Shown: positions 3,543 to 18,612 of the stretch, piece by piece
Layout: each line of letters begins with the position of its first letter
Position numbering within the stretch: the stretch's first letter is position 1
NCBI GenBank assembly: GCA_030431455.1
Contig: JAUIJE010000005.1
Location: 1 to 64,000 of the forward strand
DNA length: 64,000 nucleotides
Direction: 5' to 3'
Source: a bacterium
Lineage (GTDB): Bacteria; Myxococcota; UBA727; JAUIJE01
Notes under the pieces: model-generated
What the model was told of the DNA's origin: nothing
Database searches by the model: none
What the model saw: the letters and a program-made list of their open reading frames with translations, nothing else
Translations under genes and position numbers: made by a program

Positions 3543-4766
3543 ATGACCGCAGAACGGGTCGGTCCCTACGAGATCCTGCAGCTGTTGGCCCAAGGGGGCA
3601 TGGCCGAGATCTTCCTTGCCCGCCGGGTGGGCCCCGGGGGTTTTGAGAAGCGCGTCGTGATCAAACGCATCGCCAAGAAGCTGCTGGGCGACGGTGAGAT
3701 CGAAGCAATGTTCATGGATGAGGCCCGGGTCCAGGCGCTGCTCGACCACCCCCACATCGTGCAGATTTACGATTTCGGCGAGGACGACGGCAACTACTAC
3801 ATCGCGATGGAGTTTGTGGCCGGGGCCACCCTCCGGTGGTTCATCGACAACGCGCGGGCCAAAGGCCGGGTGGTGCCGCTGCACCATGCCCTGCGCATCA
3901 TGGCCGACGTGCTCGGCGCCCTGCACTACGCCCACGTCCTCGAGGACGACCTCGGCCAACCACTGGGGGTGATCCACCGGGACATCTCCCCGGTCAACGT
4001 GTTGGTGGCCCGCACCGGGCACGCCAAGCTGTGCGACTTCGGGGTGGCCAAGAGCCAGCTGCAGACACATTTGACCCGGGTGGGCATCGTCAAAGGGAAG
4101 TTCCGCTACATGTCGCCCGAGCAGCTGTGTGGCGAGCCCATCGACCGGCGCGTGGACGTGTTCGGGGTGGGGGTTTGTTTTTGGGAGCTGCTCACCGGCC
4201 GGCGGCTGTTTCACCACAAGGACGAGGGGGACGTGGTGCGGGCCATCCGGTCGGGGGCCTACCCGCGGCCGTCGTCGCTGCGGTCGGACCTGCCCAAGGC
4301 GGTGGACCGGCTCTTGCGCAAGGCGCTGCAGCGCGACCCCGCGGAGCGGTTCGACACCGCGCGGGAGTTTGAGCTCAGCTGCGAAGAGCTGCTCAAGCAC
4401 CTGCCCAAGGGCAGCACCAGCGCCCTGCTCTCGCGGTATGCCCGCGGCGAAATCGACGGCCGGGCCGAGAACACCCGGGTCCGGACCGCGACCCACCGCA
4501 TCGAGAGCGTGTGGGAGAGCGGGTTCGAGGCGCTCGACCCGCCGGTCCCCGGCCACGACGACGAGGTTCCGCTCGAAGACGAGCAGACCATCCCGCGCAC
4601 CGAAGGCGCGTCGACGCTGACGCGGGCGGCAAGCCTGGCCCTCAGCGCCCCCGCGGGCGCGTTTGCCGGGGTCGCGAAGACCGCGAAGGTGGTCGAAAAC
4701 GCGCTGCGCCGGGGGCAGACCGACCCCGAGGTGAACATCACCCGCTCGACCTCGGGCGAGGATTGA
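3543..4766 (+). CDS. Hanks-type serine/threonine protein kinase
   Basis: This is a soluble Ser/Thr kinase of 407 residues. The catalytic domain spans about residues 8-280. It shows the glycine loop LAQGGMAEIF, the ATP lysine in VVIK (K41), the catalytic loop HRDISPVNV (H145-D147), the metal-binding DFG (165-167) and SPE in place of APE (191-193). HRDISPxN instead of HRDLKPxN is common in myxobacterial kinases. The C-terminal 125 residues are charged, low complexity and lack a transmembrane helix or sensor domain, so the kinase is probably cytoplasmic. The next gene follows at once, with its SD inside the kinase 3' end, suggesting co-expression with a surface lipoprotein. Substrate unknown. 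Confidence 0.93.
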   Translation: MTAERVGPYEILQLLAQGGMAEIFLARRVGPGGFEKRVVIKRIAKKLLGDGEIEAMFMDEARVQALLDHPHIVQIYDFGEDDGNYYIAMEFVAGATLRWFIDNARAKGRVVPLHHALRIMADVLGALHYAHVLEDDLGQPLGVIHRDISPVNVLVARTGHAKLCDFGVAKSQLQTHLTRVGIVKGKFRYMSPEQLCGEPIDRRVDVFGVGVCFWELLTGRRLFHHKDEGDVVRAIRSGAYPRPSSLRSDLPKAVDRLLRKALQRDPAERFDTAREFELSCEELLKHLPKGSTSALLSRYARGEIDGRAENTRVRTATHRIESVWESGFEALDPPVPGHDDEVPLEDEQTIPRTEGASTLTRAASLALSAPAGAFAGVAKTAKVVENALRRGQTDPEVNITRSTSGED

Positions 4767-4767
4767 C

Positions 4768-6570
<1,803 letters not shown>

Positions 6571-7058: not shown

Positions 7059-7256
7059 TTCCCTGCGGGGGGCTGTCCCAGCCCCCTGCCCTGCTCGCGC
7101 GCGCGAGCGCTCGCGGGGCCCCACCCCCAATGTCGACGCTTCCAAGCTCGCTGCGCTCGCGTCGGGCCGGGTCGTACGCGGTGCGTACGACGGGTCAAGG
7201 AATGCTCGCGCGGGCAGACCGCGCGGCTTGTCGCCGGTGATCTTGCTCGAACGGGC
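7059..7256. repeat. Hairpin-rich intergenic spacer
   Basis: This spacer has no gene. It holds nested GC-rich palindromes, among them GGGGGCTGTCCCAGCCCCC near 7066 and CTCGCGCGCGCGAG near 7093, and a fragment AAGCTCGCTGCGCTCGCG. It resembles the repeat-rich spacers at 9503-9792, 50734-50926 and 53755-54142. It lies between convergent genes and may serve as a bidirectional transcription end. Confidence 0.5.
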
Positions 7257-7781
7257 TCAGCGCCAGGCGCGCATGGTGGGGCCGGAGGCGTCGAGGGCGT
7301 ACTCGGTGACGCGATCGATCTGGTCGCGCAGGAGGGCCACGGGGTTGTCCGCGAGCACCTTCCATTCGTCCATCGCCGCGTAGAACGCGACCGTCTGATC
7401 GCCATCGTCGTACAGGCCAAACACGTCGGGACCGGATCGGCCCCACCAATGTTTCTGCTTGAGCGCCTGGTGGGACGCGGGGGGGTACATCGCGATGCAC
7501 AGCGCGCCGGTCTGCGTGTCCCACTCGTCGAAGGTCTTGACCATCTCGGGTTCTTCCCGGCGGCTGAACAACCCCTCGAGCACCGCGGTCAGCAGCCCGC
7601 GCGCCGGGGCGGCGAGAAACACCGGGCCCGCGGCGGCGCAGGCCTTCTCCAGGTAGGTCCAGGGGGCCGCGGTGGCGTCGATGCCGCGCAAGACCTCGTC
7701 GAGGGCGGCGTCGTCCGCGCCGAGCACGCCGGCCAGGCGGTGAAACTCAATTTGCAGCTCGGCGAGGTTGGCTTGCTCCAC
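7257..7781 (-). CDS. Hypothetical protein
   Basis: I do not recognise this 174-residue protein. I chose the GTG at 7781 because GGAGG lies 7 nt upstream; longer starts reach into a non-coding-looking region. It has no signal peptide or membrane segment. The C-terminal half is rich in aromatic residues (FDEWDTQTG, KHWWGRSGPDVFGLYDD, FYAAMDEWKVLADNP), which suggests a compact globular domain. It stands alone between the convergent apaG and the same-strand outer membrane protein gene. Confidence 0.65.
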   Translation of the reverse strand: MEQANLAELQIEFHRLAGVLGADDAALDEVLRGIDATAAPWTYLEKACAAAGPVFLAAPARGLLTAVLEGLFSRREEPEMVKTFDEWDTQTGALCIAMYPPASHQALKQKHWWGRSGPDVFGLYDDGDQTVAFYAAMDEWKVLADNPVALLRDQIDRVTEYALDASGPTMRAWR

Positions 7782-7929
7782 GTCGCGGCCTCCGGGGATG
7801 GGCACCCCGGGCGGTGGGCACCGAGGGCTTATTATTCCTATACCCGTGGGCCGGATTTGGGCAGGGCTCCTGAGCAACTACAAGAACAATTCAGGGAGCA
7901 ATGGTGCTGTTTTCAGGACTTCACAGGCA

Positions 7930-9087
7930 TCACCAGTCAAGGCCCACCAGCCGGGGCAGCGACGGGATGCGCCACCGCACGCCGGCGCCGAACATGATGT
8001 CGAACTGTGGCCACACCCGCGGGGTCACGAACACGTCGACGTCAAAGGACTCGATCCGGCCGTAGGTCAGCCCGATGGGAATCGTCACGCTGCGGGACCA
8101 CCCATCATCGCGGAGCAGGAAGTGGTTGATGCCGGGGCGGTCGACGTTGACGAAGGTGACGGACAGCTCGCGCACTTTGGTGCCCACCACTTCGGCGTAG
8201 CCGAGACCGGCGGTGATCGCGAGGTTGTCGAGGAGGTCGTAGGTGAGGTGGAGGTCGGTGGAGATGGCGTTCTGGTTGTCGTTGGACAATAGAGACAAGC
8301 GGTACCGAAAGCGCGCTTGCCAGTAAATCGAGAAACGATCCCCCAGCGCCCGGGCGTAGGCGAGGCCGGCCTCGAAGTGCCACCGGAACCCGACCTGGGG
8401 CTCGCCCGCGTCCTCGACGAGGCGGAAGCCAGCATCGAAATATGACAAGCCCCCGTCGACGATGAGCGCCCCGAGCAGACCCTGCTGAGACCCGATCTTG
8501 AACCGGGTCATCAACCCCGCGGGATAGGGCGCCAGCGTCGTGCGCAGCTCCCACCAATCAAAAATGCCAAACCGCACGTCATTGGTCAGCCGGGTCGGCC
8601 CCGTGCCCACCAAGCCGTAGTGGATGTCGGCCTCGAACCCGAACTGCCCGAGCAGCGGCTCGCGCCGGGTCAGCGGCACCGGATCGCCCAACCGGCGTCC
8701 CGCCGGGGCCGGCTCCTCCGCCGCCGGGGCCTCCTCCGGGGGCGGCGCGGGCGGCGGCACCACCTCGACCTCAACCTCGGGCTCGTCGGTGGCCGCGGGC
8801 CGATCGGAGGGGTCTTGCGCGGGGGGCGGGACCGGCGCGGGGGTCTCGGCCGGCGCCGGGTCCTCCGCCGGGGGCGTCCCCGTCGGCGTGTCGGCAGGGG
8901 GCGCGGGGGTCTCGGCCGGGGGCGCCGGCGCGTCGTCGTCGTCCGCGGGCTCCTCGTCGAAGTCATCGAACTCGGACGTGTCGATGTCGTCAAACTCGTC
9001 CGCGTACTCTTCGACCCCACCGCCCTCTTGGGCCCCGGCGGTCGTCGACCACACCACACACATCGCCACCAGCCACGCCCTGCTCAT
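7930..9087 (-). CDS. Putative outer membrane beta-barrel protein with acidic/Pro-rich N-terminal region
   Basis: The 385-residue product begins with a signal peptide (MSRAWLVAMCVVWSTTAGAQ, cleavage after AGA). An acidic stretch (FDDIDTSEFDDFDEE) and about 85 residues of Pro/Ala/Glu low complexity follow, then a domain from about residue 150 to the end made of alternating-pattern strands rich in Tyr, Phe and Trp (FEADIHYGLVG, YWQARFRYRLSLLS, MFGAGVRWRI). This pattern is typical of an outer membrane barrel preceded by a periplasmic linker. The family could not be named. The start ATG at 9087 fits the signal peptide. Confidence 0.75.
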   Translation of the reverse strand: MSRAWLVAMCVVWSTTAGAQEGGGVEEYADEFDDIDTSEFDDFDEEPADDDDAPAPPAETPAPPADTPTGTPPAEDPAPAETPAPVPPPAQDPSDRPAATDEPEVEVEVVPPPAPPPEEAPAAEEPAPAGRRLGDPVPLTRREPLLGQFGFEADIHYGLVGTGPTRLTNDVRFGIFDWWELRTTLAPYPAGLMTRFKIGSQQGLLGALIVDGGLSYFDAGFRLVEDAGEPQVGFRWHFEAGLAYARALGDRFSIYWQARFRYRLSLLSNDNQNAISTDLHLTYDLLDNLAITAGLGYAEVVGTKVRELSVTFVNVDRPGINHFLLRDDGWSRSVTIPIGLTYGRIESFDVDVFVTPRVWPQFDIMFGAGVRWRIPSLPRLVGLDW

Positions 9088-9229
9088 GCCCCCCTCGTAC
9101 CACACCCGACCCCCCAGGCGGAAACGCCCGAGACGGTCAAAAACTGGCGGGGCCGCCCCCGGGGTCCGACAATGGCGCCAGATTGTGCCCGCGGGCCGAA
9201 GCCCGCCCCCCCTGCCGCCGGAGGTCCCC

Positions 9230-9502
9230 ATGGGTCGCGCCCAAGACGTCAACATCCCCGCCCCCGTGCGCCAGGCCCGCCTGAGCCGCGCCGCCCGCGC
9301 CCACATCGACGCCTCCTGGCGCGGCCTGGTCGAGGCCGCGGCCCACGAACGCAAGCGCCTCCTCGACGAGCTCAACGCCGCCCGGCGCGTCATTTGGGCC
9401 CAGCGCATGGAAGCCGCCCGCTGGCAGGAGAAGGCCGAACAGACCGCCCAGGAGCGCGACCACCTCTTCGCGCTCCTCGTCGACACCGACACCCCCCGCT
9501 GA
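9230..9502 (+). CDS. Small charged helical protein, hypothetical
   Basis: A 90-residue protein starting at ATG 9230, which has GGAGG five bases upstream. The sequence is Arg/Ala/Glu-rich and predicted helical (AAAHERKRLLDELNAARRV, WQEKAEQTAQERDHL), so a short coiled coil is likely. It has no signal peptide or known motif. The good ribosome site is the main reason to accept it. It is transcribed away from the outer membrane protein gene at 7930-9087. Confidence 0.6.
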   Translation: MGRAQDVNIPAPVRQARLSRAARAHIDASWRGLVEAAAHERKRLLDELNAARRVIWAQRMEAARWQEKAEQTAQERDHLFALLVDTDTPR

Positions 9503-9792
9503 AGCGCGGCAACGCTGCGCGTTGCTTGGGAACGCTTCGCGTTGCTTGGCAACCCTGCGGGTTGGCTTGGGCAGCCCTGCGGGTTGCTTGGGCAACCTGC
9601 GGTTGCCTTGGCCATTCCTCCGGAATCGCACGACGCGAACCTCACGCCTTCCACAGCGGGTTGCATCCGACCGGATGCAACCCGGCCCGACGGGCCGAAG
9701 GCCCTTGGAGGACCGAGGGGGATGGGGGCCCCGCGACTCGGCGAGCTTGCGAGCCGTGAGCGGGGGAAGGGGCCTGCGCCCCTTCCCAAAGG
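9503..9792. repeat. Intergenic repeat block: five ~21-bp tandem units plus a 12-bp-stem hairpin
   Basis: About 290 bases without a gene. From about 9508 to 9610 five degenerate units of about 21 bp built around CTGCGGGTTGCTTGGGCA follow each other. At 9658-9683 a perfect hairpin has the stem GGGTTGCATCCG and a two-base loop. A 29-bp stretch at 9733-9761 recurs without change at 53927-53955. The block ends just after the imuB stop codon and may also terminate transcription. Confidence 0.75.
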
Positions 9793-11346
9793 CTAATCGA
9801 ACCACGCGTGCACCGTCAGCTCCTCGGCTTCGGTGTCCCACACGCACAGCGCACGCCGGCCATCGGAGGTGAGCACCACCCGGTAGTCGCGCTCGACGGG
9901 GCGGTCTCGGTCGTCTTCGCCCGCGAGGCGAAAAAACGGGACCGCGCTCTTCACCGCCCCCGGGTGCACCCTTTCGGGGGCGGTCACAAACCGCACCGGC
10001 CACGACCAACCCGACCGGAAATGGCCGGGCCCGTCGTCGTCCTTCGGGGGCCAGCCGAGGCCGGTCATGCGCTCGGGCAACATGTGCGGCCGGGGATAGG
10101 GACTGCCCACCCGCTCAGGCCCGAGCTCGGCCATGAGCTCGGCGAGGAGCGAACGCAATGTCTCTGGAGCTTGTTCGGCCGCGGCCTCGACGTCGGCGAA
10201 CAGGGGAGACTGAACCCCCGCCACCCGCGAGGCCGGTCCCGCCCGGAGCACGAGCCGGTGCACCTCGCCGGACAGCCCCGTGCGCTCGAGCCGCAACCGC
10301 AGCGCGTCGAGGAGCGCGCGGGGATCGTCGAGGGGCTCGGGGAACATCAGCTCACAGACCTGCACATTTTTGTCCGCGGTCTCGACGTCGGCGTCCTCGC
10401 TCTCTTGGATGGGCAACACCAACAGCTCGAGCCTGACCCCGAGCAGCCGCTCGCCCCGCGCCCCCACCCGTCGACAGACCCGCTCACAAAGCGGCAACAG
10501 CGCGAACAGCAACGACTCGAGGCGCAACACCCCGAAATCGAAGTCGCGCACCTCGGCGATCTCGGGCGGGGGCCGGATGCCCTTGACCGGCATCTGGTCG
10601 TGGGCCGAGAGCAGGTCGAACACCGCCTTGGCCTCTTTGTACAACCGCGGCGCGAGCCGGCTCTTGGACAGGCCGGCCACGTCGGACAGCGTCTGCAGCC
10701 CGAGCTCGAGCAGGGCCTCGCTCAAATCCGGCGACAGCCCCGCGACCTCGAGGGGGAGCCGGCCGATGGCCTCTCGTTGGCGGTCGGCGGGCACATACAA
10801 CGTGCGGTCGCGGCCGGACCGTTGATACCGGTGCGCGGCCAATGCCAATGCGCGCGACAAGCGTTTGCCCGGGCTCGCCGCCACCGCGCATTCGTGGCCG
10901 GCTTGCTCGAGGAGGCCGGCGATGTGGCGCAGCTGGGTGGGCACCGGGCGGGGAATGCCGGTGAGGTCGAGATACAAAAACCGCTCCTCGGGCTCGACGA
11001 GGGGGGCGGCGGACAGGCAGAGCTCGGCCAAGCTCAAAAGCTCCGCTTCGATGCGCTCCTCGCGCACGATGGCCACATCAAGGGCGGGCTCGTGCACCTG
11101 GGCATCGAGGATGCGCATGGGGGGCAACACCCCCCGCGCGCGCAGGTCGTCCGAGCAGTCCACGATGCGCATCACCCCGCGCAGGACCCAATCAGGCTTG
11201 TCTCGGGGGCGCACCACCAGCACGGTCCCGCTCTCGATGGCCATGTCCTCGTCGTCGTCGCGCTCTTGGTCTTTGGCCAGCACCGTGCGCGGCAGCCGCG
11301 GCAAAAACGCGCAGGCGATGACCCGGTCGTGGCGGGGGCGGCTCAT
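9793..11346 (-). CDS. imuB: ImuB-like, Y-family DNA polymerase homologue
   Basis: ImuB is a catalytically inactive Y-family polymerase relative that bridges the sliding clamp, ImuA and the error-prone polymerase DnaE2 in SOS mutagenesis. The 517-residue product has the palm-like N-terminus with FLYLDLTGIPRPVPTQ, the GHECAVAASPGKRLSRALA region, a helix-hairpin-helix segment (LLELGLQTLSDVAGLSKSRLAPR, about 220-245) and the long C-terminal domain seen in ImuB. The acidic catalytic motifs of active Y-family polymerases are not evident. The length fits ImuB. The start overlaps the imuA stop by four bases, which implies translational coupling. No dnaE2 is in the window. Confidence 0.82.
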   Translation of the reverse strand: MSRPRHDRVIACAFLPRLPRTVLAKDQERDDDEDMAIESGTVLVVRPRDKPDWVLRGVMRIVDCSDDLRARGVLPPMRILDAQVHEPALDVAIVREERIEAELLSLAELCLSAAPLVEPEERFLYLDLTGIPRPVPTQLRHIAGLLEQAGHECAVAASPGKRLSRALALAAHRYQRSGRDRTLYVPADRQREAIGRLPLEVAGLSPDLSEALLELGLQTLSDVAGLSKSRLAPRLYKEAKAVFDLLSAHDQMPVKGIRPPPEIAEVRDFDFGVLRLESLLFALLPLCERVCRRVGARGERLLGVRLELLVLPIQESEDADVETADKNVQVCELMFPEPLDDPRALLDALRLRLERTGLSGEVHRLVLRAGPASRVAGVQSPLFADVEAAAEQAPETLRSLLAELMAELGPERVGSPYPRPHMLPERMTGLGWPPKDDDGPGHFRSGWSWPVRFVTAPERVHPGAVKSAVPFFRLAGEDDRDRPVERDYRVVLTSDGRRALCVWDTEAEELTVHAWFD

Positions 11347-12206
11347 GAACGGGCCTCATCATGCAATGCCATTTGGCGGCCGGCCTGGGACGCGGCCCGG
11401 GTCCGTTCGCGGTGGCCCCGGGCGTGGGTGGCCCGCCCGCGCAGCCTGCGCTTGCCCGCGGGGGAGTCCGCCACCGGCTCGTCGTAGCGCGGGGACAGGT
11501 CGTGCTCGGGCAACACATGAGACAATGGAGCATAGCGACCGAACATATGCCGCTGCACGGTGATGCACAGCTCCTGCTCAAGAGCCTCGTGGCGGGCCAC
11601 GTCGGCCCGCACCGCCACCGGGAGGGGCAATGGCCGGGGCGCGCTTTTTTCGGTCAACACAATGACACTGGTCTCGTGCTCCTCGGCGGCCAACGCCACC
11701 CGGCGCAGCCCCACGAGCACCCGGGACAGGTCAAACCCGCGCAGGTCGAGGATCACCCCCGCGAACACCCCGCTCTTGAGGCTGCGCACACACAGCCGGA
11801 GCCGATCCTCGGGGGGGGCATGCACGAGCAGCAGACGCGACAGAGGCACCGACAACTGTCGCAATGCATAGGCACACAAGGGCGCATCGGGGAGGGTGAG
11901 CAAAAAGCGGCGCGGCATGTGGGCCAAGGCGAGCCTCGCCAATGTCAACGCAAGCGAAAACGCCCCCTGCCCCACCTCGGCGCACAGCTCGGTGACCCGA
12001 CCGGGCAACAACAACGTCTCGGTCAAAGACGGGGGCGCGTCCCGGCCGAAGGCGGGCGTGCGGTCCTCGGCGAGCGCGAGGGGCAACGACGGCATCTGGT
12101 CTTTGAGCAACGCGAGCAAGGCCGCCCCCTGGCGCTCCTGGTCTTCGCGGTGGGCGGCAAAGATGTCCTCGGCCTGCTCGGCCCAAGCAGCGTGGATGTG
12201 CCCCAT
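11343..12206 (-). CDS. imuA: ImuA-like, RecA-related SOS mutagenesis protein
   Basis: ImuA is a RecA/SulA-like protein that works with ImuB and DnaE2 in damage-induced mutagenesis. The 287-residue product follows the family pattern: an N-terminal LLPGRVTELCAEVGQGAFSL segment where RecA has its P-loop (the P-loop lysine is missing here), then GVILDLRGFDLSR and EEHETSVIVLTEKS like the RecA core strands. The ATG at 12206 has GGAG about nine bases upstream. A LexA-type palindrome lies 46 bases before the start, which supports SOS control. The assignment rests mainly on the pairing with imuB. Confidence 0.8.
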   Translation of the reverse strand: MGHIHAAWAEQAEDIFAAHREDQERQGAALLALLKDQMPSLPLALAEDRTPAFGRDAPPSLTETLLLPGRVTELCAEVGQGAFSLALTLARLALAHMPRRFLLTLPDAPLCAYALRQLSVPLSRLLLVHAPPEDRLRLCVRSLKSGVFAGVILDLRGFDLSRVLVGLRRVALAAEEHETSVIVLTEKSAPRPLPLPVAVRADVARHEALEQELCITVQRHMFGRYAPLSHVLPEHDLSPRYDEPVADSPAGKRRLRGRATHARGHRERTRAASQAGRQMALHDEARS

Positions 12207-12466: not shown

Positions 12467-12482
12467 TGGCAAGGCACTTGCT
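12467..12482 (+). promoter_or_regulatory. Sigma54-type (-24/-12) promoter candidate
   Basis: TGGCAAGGCACTTGCT keeps GG and GC exactly ten bases apart and differs from the consensus TGGCAC-N5-TTGCA at two positions. Transcription would start near 12493 and leave a leader of about 260 nt before the gene at 12753. The rest of the 485-base spacer 12268-12752 holds no gene; it has small hairpins at 12325-12339 (GGTGTG/CACACC) and about 12538-12551 (CCGAAG/CTTCGG). Confidence 0.5.
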
Positions 12483-12752
12483 CAATAGAACAGCAGACGG
12501 TCCTCGGGCGCGCAAACACCCCCAAGGAACCACACCCCGAAGTGCTTCGGTGCTTCACCCCGCGCGCCCGAGGGCCGGCCTCTTTTCGGCGGGCCTGGTG
12601 CCCGCCGTTGCCTTGTGGGGCCCGCGATGCCGCGTGAGGTCTCGGCTGCTGCCTGCACACCGCAGTGGTCGTCGAGCACCCGGGCTCGCATTCAGCATTT
12701 TCACAGCCGAAATCGGCGCCTTTGCGATAGACACAGGCCTGAGGAGGTTTCG

Positions 12753-13547
12753 ATGCCGATTTCCAATTCCCAAAGCGCTGCCCGCTTCCGCCAAAACATC
12801 CAGCTCGCCCAGCAGAACCTGGGGACCCGCGGGGCCGACGTCACCCACGCCGAGGTGAAAAGCGCGCTGAACGAACTGAGCCAAGCCACCGACCTCTCCG
12901 GCGCCGAGAAGGCCCAGCTCGCCCAAGAGGCGCTCTCCCAGCTGAGCCAACGGGGCGTGCGCCTCGGACTCGGCTCCGCCGACGCCCTGTCGAACTTCAT
13001 CAAAGAGCGTTCGCTCGAGGGCGGCAACCCCGCCACCTTCACCAACAACGCGATGTCGATCCGCATCTCCAACGCCCTGGAGGGCCAGGTCGATGCCCTC
13101 GGCTCCGCCGCCGACCGCCTCGCCACCGCGATGAAACAAGCCAAGGGCGGCAACGTCGACCCCGCGGCGATCAACGAAGTCAAGACCGCCCTCGCCGGCC
13201 TCACCGGCGACTTCGGCATCGGCAACGACATCAACCAGCTCATGAAGGGCGGCCAGCACAGCCTGAGCGGCGGCGAGGTCAGCACCCTGCGCAGCATGTT
13301 CGCGGGTGCCCAGCAAGCGGCCCAGTCGCTCTCCGACCAACTCAACGTGTCCAAAGGCGGCGGCGCCGACGTGCCCGCGACCATGGCCGCCCTCGACCAG
13401 ATCGTCGGGGACCTCGAGGGCCAACGCAGCGTGCTGCTCGAGTCCGCGACCCCGGGCGCGATCGACACCGCCCCCACCCTCGGGGGTGGCAAGGGCCGCG
13501 GCGTCAGCGCCCCCGACCGGGGCGAGGTCTCCGGCTGGATCAACTGA
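12753..13547 (+). CDS. Helical cytoplasmic protein, hypothetical
   Basis: I do not recognise this 264-residue protein. The ATG at 12753 follows a strong GAGGAGG ribosome site 5 nt upstream; an in-frame upstream extension to 12615 lacks one. The product is Ala/Gln/Ser-rich and almost wholly helical (QNIQLAQQNLG, LSQATDLSGAEKAQLAQEAL), without Cys, signal peptide or membrane segment. The last 35 residues are Gly/Pro-rich and flexible, ending GEVSGWIN. It is the first gene of a three-gene set with the duplicated-domain protein at 13607 and the ATP-grasp protein at 14138, behind a sigma54-like promoter. It could be a structural, secreted or substrate protein; the sequence does not decide. Confidence 0.75.
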   Translation: MPISNSQSAARFRQNIQLAQQNLGTRGADVTHAEVKSALNELSQATDLSGAEKAQLAQEALSQLSQRGVRLGLGSADALSNFIKERSLEGGNPATFTNNAMSIRISNALEGQVDALGSAADRLATAMKQAKGGNVDPAAINEVKTALAGLTGDFGIGNDINQLMKGGQHSLSGGEVSTLRSMFAGAQQAAQSLSDQLNVSKGGGADVPATMAALDQIVGDLEGQRSVLLESATPGAIDTAPTLGGGKGRGVSAPDRGEVSGWIN

Positions 13548-13568
13548 ACACACCAACACACAGACACG

Positions 13569-13593
13569 CTGCGCCGCCCTCGAGGCGGCGCAG
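13569..13593 (+). promoter_or_regulatory. RNA hairpin directly before a ribosome binding site
   Basis: CTGCGCCGCC and GGCGGCGCAG form a perfect 10-bp stem with a five-base loop, 13 bases before the ATG at 13607. There is no T tract, so it is unlikely to be a terminator. It lies between the first and second gene of the 12.7-15.2 kb set and may shape mRNA processing or relative expression. Confidence 0.6.
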
Positions 13594-13606
13594 TCGCGAG
13601 GACACC

Positions 13607-14095
13607 ATGACCGAACCGATGTGGGGCAAGGCCGAAGTCGAGGCCGCTATTCAGTATTTCAACAACACCGACCAAGTCTCCGATGGCGACCGCCAGGGCC
13701 TGGCCAAGCTCGCGGTGCGCTTCGACCGCTTCGCGGCCATGGTCGACGACGGGAAGATCCAGGCCGGAGAGCCGCGCCAGCTCGCGGACACGTTCTTGAA
13801 GACCGCCCAGGCGTGGTTCGAGAAGAACCCCTCGGTGAAAAAAGACAAAGACCTGGTCTGGACCACGGCCAAGGTCGAAAAAGCCATCCTCTACTTCAAC
13901 GACACCGACGCGGTGCCGGCGACGGACAAGGACGGGATGAAAAAACTCATCGGCGAGTTCAAGGCGTTCGAAGCCGCGATCCAAGGCGGCTGGGTCGAGG
14001 ACGGGCCGGCCAAGGAGCTGGCGGACGCGTTCTTGAAACGCAGCCAAGAGTGGTTCGACGAAAACCCCGCGTTCCAGAAGCTGTACAAAGCCTGA
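13607..14095 (+). CDS. Protein of two tandem ~73-residue domains, hypothetical
   Basis: The 162-residue product consists of an internal duplication: residues 6-78 and 85-158 align end to end. Shared features are a leading Trp, a VExAIxYFNxTD segment, a central helix with FxxF/FxxA, an LADxFLK segment and a closing WFxxNP. It is acidic, soluble and lacks a signal peptide. I know no family with this pattern. ATG 13607 has GAGG six bases upstream and a hairpin before it. The ATP-grasp gene starts 42 bp downstream, so the protein may be a partner or substrate of that ligase (inference). Confidence 0.8.
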   Translation: MTEPMWGKAEVEAAIQYFNNTDQVSDGDRQGLAKLAVRFDRFAAMVDDGKIQAGEPRQLADTFLKTAQAWFEKNPSVKKDKDLVWTTAKVEKAILYFNDTDAVPATDKDGMKKLIGEFKAFEAAIQGGWVEDGPAKELADAFLKRSQEWFDENPAFQKLYKA

Positions 14096-14137
14096 GCCCC
14101 GACGACGGCACGACGACCGAGGAGCCAAGGAGGGCGT

Positions 14138-15214
14138 GTGCCCCGCGCGGTGGTCATCTACGACCGAGACTTCGGCAACATCTTTGACCGGCACGGCAAA
14201 GACGCCCACCCGGTCAGCGAAAAAAAAGAGGTCGTCGAGGACAGCAACGACGCCGGCCCCATTGCGCAAGCATTGGAGAAGGCCGGCTACGACGTGACCA
14301 TCATGGCCCTCGACGAGGGCTACATGGCCCAGCTGGTGTCATTGGGGCAGAGCCGGCCGGACCTGGTGTTCAACCTTTGTGACTCGCTGGCCGGCGACCC
14401 CCGCCTGGCCCACGTCGTGCCCGCGCTGCTCGACGGGTACGGGGTGCCCTACACCGGGGCCGCGGCCGAGGGGCTGTCACTCACCAAGCGCAAACACGAC
14501 GTGAAGGCGGTGCTCGCCCGCGAAGGCCTGCCCACCCCGCGCTACCAGGTGCTGTACGAGCACGAGGACCCGGCCGCGGTCGCGCTCGAGATTGTGCCCC
14601 CGGTGATCCTCAAGCTCACCGGCGAACACGCCTCGGTGGGCCTGCTGCAAAAAAACGTGTGCTGGACCCAAGCGGAGATGGCGGCCCGGGCGCGCGAGCT
14701 GTTTGACGAGTACCACCAGACGATCCTCGTCGAGGAGTTCGTCGACGGGCGCGAGTTTTATGTGTCGTCGGTGGGCGAGCCGCTGCAGCCCATGCCGTTC
14801 ATGGAGCAGAAGTTCGACCACTTGCCGGACGGGTTTTTGTCCATCCGCACCTTCGACACGAAGTGGTTCGACATGCCGGGCGTGGGGGGCGATCACCGGC
14901 CGCGCCACGACGACGAACGGTGGAGCCAACCCATCGCCAAGCGCCACCCGGTGACGCCGTTTTGGGGCCGCATCGAGCAGATTGAAAAAATCGGCGCGCG
15001 GGCCCTCGAGGTGTGCGGGGGCCGCGACTGGGGACGGGTCGATTTCCGCCTCGACCGCGGGGGGGTGCCGATGGTGATCGACGTGACCCCCAACTCGTAC
15101 CTGCACCCGAACACGCCGTGCGCCATCGCCGCCCGCCACATCGGCATCTCCTACGACGACCTCGTCAAACGCATCGCCGAGGCCGCGCTCTCCCGGTCCC
15201 GCGAGGCCGCTTGA
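14138..15214 (+). CDS. ATP-grasp ligase of the D-Ala-D-Ala ligase type, divergent
   Basis: The 358-residue product has the fold order of D-alanine-D-alanine ligase: an N-terminal Rossmann-like part (LVFNLCDSLAGDPRLAHVVP, GVPYTGAAAEGLSLTKRKHDVK), the ATP-grasp lysine strand PPVILKLTGEHASVGLLQ, the adenine loop TILVEEFVDGREFYVS and a C-terminal metal site. There GRVDFRLD is followed by VIDVTPNSYL, where classical ligases have an E-V-N-T/P pattern, so the metal Glu is Asp and the Asn is Thr. It is not near mur genes. An amide-forming role on a small molecule or peptide is likely, with the substrate unknown. GTG 14138 follows AAGGAGG; GTG 14136 is out of frame. Confidence 0.85.
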   Translation: MPRAVVIYDRDFGNIFDRHGKDAHPVSEKKEVVEDSNDAGPIAQALEKAGYDVTIMALDEGYMAQLVSLGQSRPDLVFNLCDSLAGDPRLAHVVPALLDGYGVPYTGAAAEGLSLTKRKHDVKAVLAREGLPTPRYQVLYEHEDPAAVALEIVPPVILKLTGEHASVGLLQKNVCWTQAEMAARARELFDEYHQTILVEEFVDGREFYVSSVGEPLQPMPFMEQKFDHLPDGFLSIRTFDTKWFDMPGVGGDHRPRHDDERWSQPIAKRHPVTPFWGRIEQIEKIGARALEVCGGRDWGRVDFRLDRGGVPMVIDVTPNSYLHPNTPCAIAARHIGISYDDLVKRIAEAALSRSREAA

Positions 15215-15234: not shown

Positions 15235-15552
15235 TCAACGGTGCCGGTGCCGATGTCGGGCGCTGCGGTTGCGCTCGTCGAACCCGCGCATGCCATGCCG
15301 CCTCTGAAACGTGAGCGCGCTCTTCACCAACCCCACGACCAGCACGAACGACACCGGAAAAGCCCACAAGTGCAGCCAGGATCCACCCCCGACCACCTGC
15401 GCCACGCCGAACCCACCGCCGCCGACCAGGACCACGAGCAGCAACACCACCAACAGCTTGTTCAACGTTTCGTGGACTTCAAACGACAGCTCGCCGGAGC
15501 GCCCGTCCTGGACGGGCCGCGGCTTTTTTTGGGCACGATGGGGCGCGGGCAT
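15235..15552 (-). CDS. Small membrane protein with two helices, hypothetical
   Basis: A 105-residue protein with two hydrophobic helices (LNKLLVVLLLVVLVGGGGFG and WLHLWAFPVSFVLVVGLV) and a strongly basic C-terminus ending in alternating Arg-His. The loop between the helices is short, so both ends probably face the cytoplasm. No known family was recognised. It is convergent with the ATP-grasp gene and divergent from the oxoamine synthase gene; the 73-bp divergent spacer must hold promoters for both. Confidence 0.65.
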   Translation of the reverse strand: MPAPHRAQKKPRPVQDGRSGELSFEVHETLNKLLVVLLLVVLVGGGGFGVAQVVGGGSWLHLWAFPVSFVLVVGLVKSALTFQRRHGMRGFDERNRSARHRHRHR

Positions 15553-15625: not shown

Positions 15626-16909
15626 ATGGCCGACGTCTTTGACCAGCTGATCGACACCACCCTGGGCCCCAAAAACGCGGTGGTGCAAGACCTCGTCGCC
15701 CGGGGGCAGCTGTACGACCGCGTCGCCACCGACATCGACGGCCGCATGGTCAAGGTCGACGGCAAATGGCTCGCCGACTTCGCGTCCTGCAACTACCTCG
15801 GCCTCGACCTGAACGACAAAGTCATCCGCGCGGTGGAGCCCGGCCTGAAAAAATGGGGCACCCACCCGTCGTGGGCCCGCCTCGCGTGTAGCCCCGTGCT
15901 CTACGAGGAGCTGGAGCAAAAACTCGCCGCCGTGCTCGGCACCGAAGATTGCCTGGTGCTGCCCACGATTTCGCTCATCGCCATCGGGCTCATCCCCGCC
16001 CTCACCAACAAAAAGAGCATCATCTTCGCCGACAAGTTCGTGCATAAGGTCAACCACGACGGGTGCCGCCTCGCCCGCGACATGGGCGCGACCCTCAAGA
16101 GCTTCCGCCACGACGAGCTCGCGGACCTCGAGGCCCAACTGCAACAAGCCGGCGACTACGAGACCCGCCTCATCGTCATCGACGGCGTGCTCAGTGTCAC
16201 CGGCCGCACCCCCAACCTCCCCGACATCACCGCCCTCGCCCGCAAGTACGATGCGATCTTGTACATCGACGACGCCCACGGCTTCGGCGTCATCGGCGAG
16301 CGCCCCACCGCCGAGCGGCCCTACGGCCACCGCGGCAACGGCGTGGTCCGCCACTTTGACCTCGGGTACGACAACATCATCTACGTGGCGGGCATGTCCA
16401 AGGCCTACTCGTCGCTGGCCGCGTTCATCGCTTGCCCCACCAAGATCAAGACCCTGCTCAAGTGCAACGTCACCAGCTACATTGTGTCGGGGCCGGTCCC
16501 GGTGGCGAGCCTGATCACGTCCTTGGTCGGCCTCGAGGTCAACGACGACGAGGGCGACGCCCTGCGCGACCGCTTGTTTGGCTACACCGCGGACATCATC
16601 GACGCCTACCGCGCGCGGGGCATCCGCACCGACAACGACAACCTCTTCCCCATCGTGTCCGCGTACGTGGGCGCGGCCGAGACGGTGCTGCGCGGGGGCC
16701 AGCTGCTGTTCGACGAGGGCATCTACGTGACGCTGCAGGCCTATCCGCTCGTGCCCCAGGACAAGGGCGTGCTCCGGGCCACCCCCACCGCGGCCAACAC
16801 CCAAAAAGAGGTGCAACACCTCATCGACGCGATGGAGCGCACCCACCACGCCCTGCGCCAAGAAGGGTTCGCGCTGCCCGGTTCGTCAGCTGCAGAATCG
16901 TCGAACTGA
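15626..16909 (+). CDS. Alpha-oxoamine synthase family PLP enzyme
   Basis: A 427-residue aminotransferase class I/II fold enzyme that would condense an amino acid with an acyl thioester and lose CO2, as do 8-amino-7-oxononanoate synthase, 2-amino-3-ketobutyrate ligase and serine palmitoyltransferase. It shows FASCNYLGLDL, a glycine/His-rich substrate region, IDDAHGFGVIG with the PLP ring aspartate, and the PLP lysine in GMSKAYSS (K259). No other biotin genes are near. The partner gene overlaps the stop by one base and encodes an acyl-CoA dehydrogenase-GNAT fusion, so a lipid or secondary-metabolite role is more likely than biotin synthesis. ATG 15626 has AGGA six bases upstream. Confidence 0.88.
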   Translation: MADVFDQLIDTTLGPKNAVVQDLVARGQLYDRVATDIDGRMVKVDGKWLADFASCNYLGLDLNDKVIRAVEPGLKKWGTHPSWARLACSPVLYEELEQKLAAVLGTEDCLVLPTISLIAIGLIPALTNKKSIIFADKFVHKVNHDGCRLARDMGATLKSFRHDELADLEAQLQQAGDYETRLIVIDGVLSVTGRTPNLPDITALARKYDAILYIDDAHGFGVIGERPTAERPYGHRGNGVVRHFDLGYDNIIYVAGMSKAYSSLAAFIACPTKIKTLLKCNVTSYIVSGPVPVASLITSLVGLEVNDDEGDALRDRLFGYTADIIDAYRARGIRTDNDNLFPIVSAYVGAAETVLRGGQLLFDEGIYVTLQAYPLVPQDKGVLRATPTAANTQKEVQHLIDAMERTHHALRQEGFALPGSSAAESSN

Positions 16910-18612
16910 TGGTCCCGGCCCCGTTTGTTCCCCTGTTCGACCGGTACCGCACCCTCGGGGCGGAGCTGGTGGCGCCCACCGTACAAGCCCGGGACGCGGC
17001 CTACGCCTTTGGGCGCGACGCCTTCGCCGCCCTTGGCCAGGCCGGCCTCTTTCGCCTGCCTGTGCCCCAGGGCTGCGGGGGCGCGGGACAAGGCATGGGG
17101 GCGTTCGCCGCGGCCATCTGTGGCCTCGCCGCGGGCTCGGGCGACCTCGGCTTTGGGGTCTCGCTCGTCGCGCACCAGGTGGGCATCTCCGCCCTGGTCG
17201 AGCACGGCAGCCCCGACGTGCACGCCCGCGTGCTTTCTGACCTGCTCGACGGGAACAAGCTCATCGGGGTGGTCAACGCCGAGCGCGGCGCGGGCACCGA
17301 CCTGCTCGGGCTCCGCTCCCGGGCCACGCCCACCGACGACGGCTTTGTGCTCCAGGCCAAAAAGCGCCGGGTCACCAATGTCTCGGAAGCGGACTGGATG
17401 CTGGTCTCGGCCCGGCGCACAGACCTCGAAGCCAAACGCGCGGTGAACATCTACCTCGTCGACAAAACCGGGGCCCGGACCTTCACCCGCCCCGCCCACG
17501 ACCTGAACGCGCTGCGCACCTCCCCCACCGGCGACCTCGTGGCCTGGCGCCAACCCTTGCCCACCTGGGCCGAGGTGGGCACGCCGGGGTCGGGGCTTTT
17601 GCAGTTCAAGACCATGTTCTCGACCGAACGCATCTGGTGCGCGTTTTTGTACCTCGCCGCCATCGAGCGGGCCCTGGCGCGCGGGCTCGCGTTCGTGCAG
17701 GAGCGGCGACAGTTCGGCCGGCCCATCGGCACCAACCAATACGTGCAAGAGCGCATCGTGCAGATGGAGGTCGCGCGCGACACGTTGAGCGCGCTGCTCT
17801 GGCGCACCGTCGAGCAATACGAGCGCGGCGAGGACGTGCAAAAGAGCCTCTCGGTGGCGAAGGTGTACGGCATCGAGGCCGCGCTCAGCGCGGTCGAGCA
17901 CCTCATGCGCCTGCTCGGGGGACGCGGCCTTCTGCAAAAAGAAGGCGCGGAGAAAATGCTCCGGGACCTGCACGGCCTCGCCATCCTCGGGGGCACGGTC
18001 GAGCTGCAAAAGATGATCGTCTACCAGGAAGCGGTGAACGCCATGACCAAGCCCGCGCCCACCGACCTCGACATCAGCCTCGTCGACGTGGACGACATCG
18101 ACCCCGCCCTGGAGCGGCAACTGGTGGCCCTCACCGCCCGGGTGTTCCCCGGGCAGGAGGCGCTCGAGGGCAAGTACTACTTCGATTCCAAACCGAGCGC
18201 GGTGTGCGTGGCCCGGCGCGGCGACCAGGTGGTGGCCCTGCGGCCCATCACCCGGCGCGACGTCGACATCGGCGGCCAGACCGTGCGCATCGCGGGGGGC
18301 ATCATCCCCGCGGTGGACCCCGCCCACCGCCGACAAGGCATCGCCCGCGCGATGGTCGAGCGCATCATTCCATACTTGCAGGAGTGTGGATATGACCTCT
18401 CGCTGGCGTTCTTGTTCAACCGGGCGCCGGACGCGTTCCTGTTGCCGTTTGGGTTCGAAAAGCTGGCCGCGACCTTCCGCTACACCGACCGCACGACGGG
18501 GAACGACATCGGCGAGGGCATGCCCGCCTACGCCCGCGCGCTCACCGACGACACCCTGCTCGAGCGGCTCGAGGCCCAGGGCGTGATCCACCTCGGTCTC
18601 GGGACGTTCTAG
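16909..18612 (+). CDS. Acyl-CoA dehydrogenase fused to a GNAT acetyltransferase
   Basis: The 567-residue product joins two enzymes. Residues about 1-375 are an acyl-CoA dehydrogenase: the N-terminal helical domain (AFGRDAFAALGQAGLFRLPVP), the FAD/substrate strand region (GVVNAERGAGTDLLGLRSRA) and the C-terminal bundle (FVQERRQFGRPIGTNQYVQ, LGGRGLLQKEGAEKMLRDLHGLAILGGT). Residues about 385-567 are a GNAT domain with AGGIIPAVDPAHRRQGIARAMVE, the acetyl-CoA binding loop RRQGIA, and an Eis-like ending LPFGFEKL. The ATG overlaps the oxoamine synthase stop (TGATG), so the two are coupled. It may oxidise an acyl chain and acylate an amine in the same pathway (inference). Confidence 0.87.
   Translation: MVPAPFVPLFDRYRTLGAELVAPTVQARDAAYAFGRDAFAALGQAGLFRLPVPQGCGGAGQGMGAFAAAICGLAAGSGDLGFGVSLVAHQVGISALVEHGSPDVHARVLSDLLDGNKLIGVVNAERGAGTDLLGLRSRATPTDDGFVLQAKKRRVTNVSEADWMLVSARRTDLEAKRAVNIYLVDKTGARTFTRPAHDLNALRTSPTGDLVAWRQPLPTWAEVGTPGSGLLQFKTMFSTERIWCAFLYLAAIERALARGLAFVQERRQFGRPIGTNQYVQERIVQMEVARDTLSALLWRTVEQYERGEDVQKSLSVAKVYGIEAALSAVEHLMRLLGGRGLLQKEGAEKMLRDLHGLAILGGTVELQKMIVYQEAVNAMTKPAPTDLDISLVDVDDIDPALERQLVALTARVFPGQEALEGKYYFDSKPSAVCVARRGDQVVALRPITRRDVDIGGQTVRIAGGIIPAVDPAHRRQGIARAMVERIIPYLQECGYDLSLAFLFNRAPDAFLLPFGFEKLAATFRYTDRTTGNDIGEGMPAYARALTDDTLLERLEAQGVIHLGLGTF

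Follow-up and report, generated by a model that had tools for sequence, protein, structure and literature searches.

What does an ATP-grasp enzyme resembling D-Ala-D-Ala ligase (Ddl) do when it is encoded directly behind two small proteins of no recognisable family? The stretch of Myxococcota DNA analysed here (64,000 nucleotides, hereafter the window) carries such an arrangement, which the initial annotation described as a three-gene cassette under a GG-N10-GC sigma54 promoter, proposing the two small proteins, here termed P1 and P2, as substrates or partners of the ligase. The three genes do lie close together on the + strand, with gaps of 59 bp (P1-P2) and 42 bp (P2-ligase) and good ribosome-binding sites, and searches of P1 and P2 against Pfam, NCBIfam and PHROGs gave no family above cut-off, as that annotation had supposed. 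The cassette is real and makes up the leading half of a longer locus. A sigma54-like promoter is followed by P1, P2 and the ATP-grasp ligase and, further downstream, by genes for an alpha-oxoamine synthase (AONS) and for a fusion of acyl-CoA dehydrogenase with GNAT acyltransferase (ACAD-GNAT) (Table 1). The unit as first drawn ends too early: it continues through the AONS and ACAD-GNAT genes, the ATG of the latter (at 16909) overlapping the AONS stop codon. These two downstream genes, which had been missed, are the strongest partners of the ligase; in a second genome (G008) the ligase sits with them and without P1 and P2. The small hydrophobic protein encoded on the opposite strand between ligase and AONS is probably outside the system, since these two genes are directly adjacent in G008 and in a further genome, G096. 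A gene pair divergent from P1 (window 9793-12206, - strand) resembles ImuB/ImuA, with a weak IMS_C match (E 0.18).

Table 1. Features of the locus in the window and of its counterpart in genome G096.
Feature	Position	Strand	Description
Sigma54-type promoter-like site	12467-12482	+	TGGCAAGGCACTTGCT; 13/14 consensus letters
Leader hairpin, promoter to P1	12498-12577	+	16-bp hairpin; RNA fold of 12484-12756, z = -2.5
P1	12753-13547	+	264 aa; RBS GAGGAGG; helical, tail predicted disordered; candidate substrate or scaffold
Conserved P1 C-terminal block	13494-13547	+	GRGVSAPDRGEVSGWIN-stop; matches end of G096 P1-like protein
Stem-loop between P1 and P2	13565-13598	+	dG -24.6 kcal/mol, z = -4.29
P2	13607-14095	+	162 aa; tandem duplication of an all-helical domain of ~80 residues
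ATP-grasp ligase	14138-15214	+	358 aa; GTG start, RBS AAGGAGG; D/D/T metal site; PF07478
Small hydrophobic protein	15235-15552	-	between ligase and AONS; from ORF and composition
AONS	15626-16909	+	427 aa; PLP, BioF/KBL/SPT-like; NCBIfam/PDB matches
ACAD-GNAT	16909-18612	+	acyl-CoA dehydrogenase fused to GNAT acyltransferase; Pfam
G096 P1-like	L124 9691-10146	one strand with rest of locus	151 aa
G096 P2, single domain	9411-9668	one strand with rest of locus	only 4 bp from ligase ORF
G096 ligase	8348-9406	one strand with rest of locus	overlaps AONS
G096 AONS	7117-8373	one strand with rest of locus	overlaps ligase
G096 inserted gene	between AONS and ACAD-GNAT		unrelated, lipoprotein-like
G096 ACAD-GNAT fusion	3911-5626	one strand with rest of locus	

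The complete set from P1 to ACAD-GNAT was found in two genomes only, that of the window (G000) and G096, which belongs to another family of the same phylum and carries a P1-like gene, a single-domain P2, the ligase, AONS, an inserted gene and ACAD-GNAT, all on one strand. Two families thus share the gene order, and the catalytic residues are retained. In G008, from another family of the same order, ligase and GNAT genes face AONS and ACAD genes across ~100 bp. In G089, a 49%-identical ligase has no AONS, P1 or P2 within 19.5 kb around it; the suggested co-occurrence of the three cassette genes holds for G096, but the ligase is not tied to P1 and P2 everywhere. Run against 195 genomes of the phylum, a profile built on the four ligases gave 577-659 bits in G000, G008, G089 and G096, with no other match above 222 bits. 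Four of the 195 genomes thus carry the ligase clade and three of 179 the AONS clade, these three being among the four. Hypergeometric overlap with the ligase, in which relatedness is ignored, gave 3e-6 for AONS and 1e-5 for P2, so that their co-occurrence with the ligase is unlikely to have arisen by chance. A contig scan with a two-sequence ligase alignment returned only G008 and remote relatives, but its peptide patterns do not fit G096 and G089, and it is therefore no measure of absence elsewhere. We interpret the locus as a rare biosynthetic operon of Myxococcota, the operon itself being well supported, and its patchy spread suggests horizontal transfer.

The ligase matches Dala_Dala_lig_C (PF07478) with 43 bits against a cut-off of 24, in agreement with its first description as a Ddl-like ATP-grasp enzyme. 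As a Ddl proper it was rejected, scoring 52.2 bits (genome) and 73.0 bits (protein) against the TIGR01205 cut-off of 245.65, and a separate true Ddl is present in the window's own genome (315.7 bits). A tree of 37 sequences unites the four members of the ligase clade with 100/100 support, on a stem of 1.25 changes per site, and places E. coli DdlB and the Ddl of the window's genome outside this group; the clustering with D-Ala-D-Ala ligases that would have spoken against the initial annotation was not seen. When aligned with E. coli DdlB, the clade invariably keeps K97, K144, E180, E187 and R255 (DdlB numbers), including the ATP-binding lysines and glutamates that mark the ATP-grasp amide ligase superfamily. 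The helper triad of Ddl, E15-S150-Y216, is not retained: W replaces the Y216 that Ddl uses, and the counterpart of E15 is not clear. S281 is also lost. At the metal site, the Ddl ligands D257, E270 and N272 correspond to D (E in G089), D and T, and all four members share the motif ID[VI]TP. The altered site IDVTPN that had been pointed out is thus present, but only half of it is special, as the E270-to-D change is common to a large myxobacterial sister family reading DINPN and the N272-to-T change alone is exclusive to the clade. Most likely it is an active enzyme with a different substrate; the N-to-T change at a metal ligand could also mean altered or lost activity.

Two other groups of ATP-grasp proteins were seen along the way. 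Sister enzymes with the motif DINPNCDLHP occur in many myxobacteria, and two of them (L026 and L027, in G037 and G055) adjoin a small GNAT-like gene. The window's genome also encodes a tandem two-domain ATP-grasp protein of ~720 aa (L038; G000:C6:10670-12841), 31-34% identical to the ligase, next to genes with c-type-cytochrome-like motifs.

If the ligase has a protein substrate, the C-terminus of P1 is a candidate. The AF2 model of P1 is of low confidence (mean pLDDT 57.6), residues 231-264 fall below 50, and the tail is predicted to be disordered. P1 and its G096 counterpart, a gene with strong codon bias (third-position GC 0.93), align poorly outside the C-terminal block (local alignment p ~0.01), but their final 17 residues, GRGVSAPDRGEVSGWIN and GGHVRPATAEEIRSWLN, match with p ~6e-5 against shuffled composition (~1e-5 for the last 7 residues), both proteins terminating in E[VI]xxW[IL]N-stop. 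A search of eight genomes for E-[hydrophobic]-x-x-W-[hydrophobic]-N-stop returned only these two proteins, with a single occurrence in the window's own genome; as about 0.9 matches are expected by chance from composition across the eight genomes in all, the evidence lies in the position before P2 and not in the match count. A relaxed pattern found no such ending in G008. A conserved extreme C-terminus on a drifting body would be the pattern expected for a substrate end. A RiPP-like precursor would carry a conserved core and be encoded next to its modifying enzymes; in P1 the C-terminal block is conserved in two genomes. As precursors go, P1 is long, and neither a protease nor an exporter gene was seen next to it within the window. 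Moreover, because related motifs (E-x-x-W/A-L) also occur inside both P1 proteins, the end may be just one more structural repeat of a repeat protein. Conservation of the P1 end lends some support to the proposal that a neighbour serves as protein substrate, while which of the two proteins would be modified, if either, we can only infer.

The claim that P2 is a duplicated-domain protein was borne out, as its domain profile (A2, built partly from the two copies in window P2 itself) matches P2 twice, with 115 and 118 bits. The AF2 model (pLDDT 79.5) contains eight helices in two repeats of four, and a fold search in the PDB returned generic helical bundles only, such as 14-3-3, with a best E of 0.45. 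A role as phosphopantetheine carrier was rejected, there being no conserved serine and no Pfam match, and the C-terminal ends of P2 vary among relatives. Convincing profile matches were confined to G000, G006, G008 and G096; weaker ones in G085 and G024 fall inside apparently unrelated genes and were discarded. The G008 relative, 30% identical, is encoded on a different contig (G008:C12; L024 1-15966) after a serine/threonine kinase gene, with a TPR protein and small Gly/Gln-rich proteins encoded close by; the region may serve secretion or signalling. The G006 relative (G006:C11; L025 7455-9082) follows a 337-aa protein in which a DVEAVRRWL motif is reminiscent of P1.

The AONS matches SPT and BioF/KBL structures in the PDB almost equally and, when aligned with 8s1y, retains the PLP lysine, the stacking histidine and the D-x-A-H (AHG) aspartate of alpha-oxoamine synthases. 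It lies below every specific NCBIfam model (bioF 218/426, SPT 190/640, alpha-hydroxyketone autoinducer synthase 98/428 bits), so that it cannot be assigned as BioF, SPT, KBL or CqsA by the equivalog cut-offs. AONS genes 65-66% identical adjoin the ligase in G096 and G008, and a plasmid search returned only relatives of ~30% identity. A 48%-identical AONS belongs to a further uncharacterised cluster in two 12.5 Mb genomes, G092 (L125 4919-8169) and G089 (L126 5485-10875), with a JmjC/cupin-like gene on one side and a B12-binding radical-SAM-like gene on the other, both assigned by eye. The ACAD part has three Pfam domains above their cut-offs together with the catalytic glutamate of acyl-CoA dehydrogenases, which lies at the isovaleryl-CoA dehydrogenase position (xER) and is kept in three genomes. 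ACAD and GNAT are fused in the window's genome and in G096 and are separate genes in G008. In an earlier analysis of the genome context of peptide-forming clusters, acyl-CoA dehydrogenases were noted only alongside a GNAT enzyme and were proposed to prepare its acyl-CoA (PMC2922099); here the two form one protein.

The putative sigma54 site was also recovered: TGGCAAGGCACTTGCT is the only match to TGGCANGN4TTGCW within the 64 kb, where 0.01 would be expected. No comparable site was found upstream of P1 in G096, and the putative promoter is therefore a local observation. Stem-loops are often found 3' of genes needed in larger amounts, and we therefore count the one after P1 as a point for the protein-substrate model; the corresponding gap in G096 is only 22 bp, as against 59 bp with the stem-loop in the window. 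An Rfam search of the region, including the leader hairpin, gave no match. The sigma54 system is reported to regulate natural-product genes directly in bacteria, in a paper that treats Myxococcus (PMC7910581).

With these components in mind, one may speculate on how they would work together. Alpha-oxoamine synthases form alpha-aminoketones with loss of CO2, acyl-CoA dehydrogenases desaturate acyl thioesters, GNAT enzymes acylate amines, and ATP-grasp ligases make amides via acyl phosphates. Based on this known chemistry, ACAD would prepare an unsaturated acyl thioester, AONS would join an acyl thioester decarboxylatively to an amino acid, yielding an alpha-aminoketone, and GNAT would acylate an amine. 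The ligase would convert a carboxylate into an acyl phosphate and then form an amide bond with an amine. Less certainly, the carboxylate could be the P1 C-terminus with its flexible tail and conserved W[IL]N, or a nearby side group, and the most economical link would be that an amine, perhaps the aminoketone, is joined to this C-terminus by the ligase; P2, as a helical accessory protein, may present P1 or hold the enzymes. That AONS, ACAD and GNAT make an aminoketone or a modified acyl unit, which the ligase links through an amide bond, perhaps to the C-terminus of P1, is the reading we tentatively prefer. The more specific proposal, a new class of protein-tethered biosynthesis in which the ligase extends the P1 C-terminus, AONS and ACAD-GNAT build an alpha-aminoketone there and P2 helps, seems to us rather unlikely as a whole. 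The gene set may represent a novel strategy for assembling a small molecule at the end of a protein.

A cluster making a free small molecule is almost as likely as the P1-linked model. AONS, ACAD and GNAT would here make an acylated aminoketone, which the ligase would couple, in the manner of BacD-type enzymes, to an amino acid or dipeptide in free form, P1 and P2 being regulatory, storage or self-protection proteins that are never modified. Such a function would fit G008, where ligase, AONS, ACAD and GNAT stay together with P1 and P2 not nearby, the lone ligase of G089, and the GNAT-like genes next to some sister ATP-grasp enzymes (in the f13 genomes). It sits less well with the P1 and P2 genes heading the operon in both complete loci and with the exact retention of the P1 end while the remainder drifted. 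We consider it improbable that the locus is a lipid pathway, with an AONS akin to SPT or cysteate acyltransferase, a GNAT akin to ceramide synthase, a ligase adding an amino-acid head group and P2 as an unusual carrier: the near-equal structural matches of AONS to SPT and BioF/KBL would allow this, but lipid-specific NCBIfam models are far from their cut-offs, P2 lacks a conserved serine, and the neighbours scanned include neither an acyl carrier protein nor an acyl-CoA synthetase. There is a similarly small chance that P1 and P2 are the building blocks of a structural or surface assembly which the enzymes decorate or are merely co-regulated with; P1 is helical and repetitive and the P2 relatives of G006 and G008 are encoded apart from the enzymes, but P2 lies directly 5' of the ligase in both complete loci. 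Finally, that the ligase is a cell-wall Ddl paralogue present by chance is already contradicted, its best PDB and Pfam matches to Ddl notwithstanding, by its position outside Ddl in the tree, the changes at Y216 and S281 and a TIGR01205 score far below that of the genome's separate Ddl, and we regard it as highly improbable.

Each enzyme of the locus is a member of a known superfamily. Judged by the open-access papers searched, the way they are combined, the ligase clade and P2 seem not to have been described before. Even without P1 as a substrate, the N-to-T ligase clade and the P2 domain appear to be undescribed and are easily testable. If the ligase does act on P1, the system would join ATP-grasp extension of a protein end to C-C bond formation by an oxoamine synthase, a combination we did not find in the open-access papers searched. 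Peptidyl ketones are known protease-inhibitor warheads, and it would therefore be of use to make them by a ribosomal route.

The ligase shares with Ddl the ATP-grasp fold, both ATP lysines, E180, E187, R255 and the first metal aspartate, but differs from it in forming a separate, long-stemmed clade below the family cut-off, with D/D/T in place of D/E/N, W in place of Y216 and a different operon. In amino-group carrier systems of the LysW/LysX type, the carrier protein receives a small molecule at its end from a RimK-like ATP-grasp ligase (LysX), and the attachment proposed here would be alike; however, the acidic Glu end of LysW is absent, P1 ending in WIN or WLN and P2 in variable residues. 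As in graspetides (PMC8939145), an ATP-grasp enzyme adjoins a small protein gene, but the best models for the ligase are Ddl, and its branch is the Ddl-like one rather than that of RimK (rimK_fam 17/143 bits), and Pfam and NCBIfam revealed no known graspetide precursor family in P1 or P2. The AONS has the fold and catalytic residues of BioF, KBL, SPT and cysteate acyltransferase (PMC11906848, PMC9304779), from which its sub-threshold scores and its gene partners set it apart. The nearest parallel to the P1-linked model is PEARL (PMC11962472, PMC11117183), with which it shares the idea of ATP-dependent C-terminal extension of a ribosomal scaffold followed by tailoring. No LanB-like domain, the mark of PEARL, was found by Pfam and NCBIfam in any of the genes scanned, and the likeness is one of logic only: here the extension would be made by a Ddl-type ATP-grasp ligase on a scaffold of 151-264 aa, and the tailoring by AONS and ACAD-GNAT.
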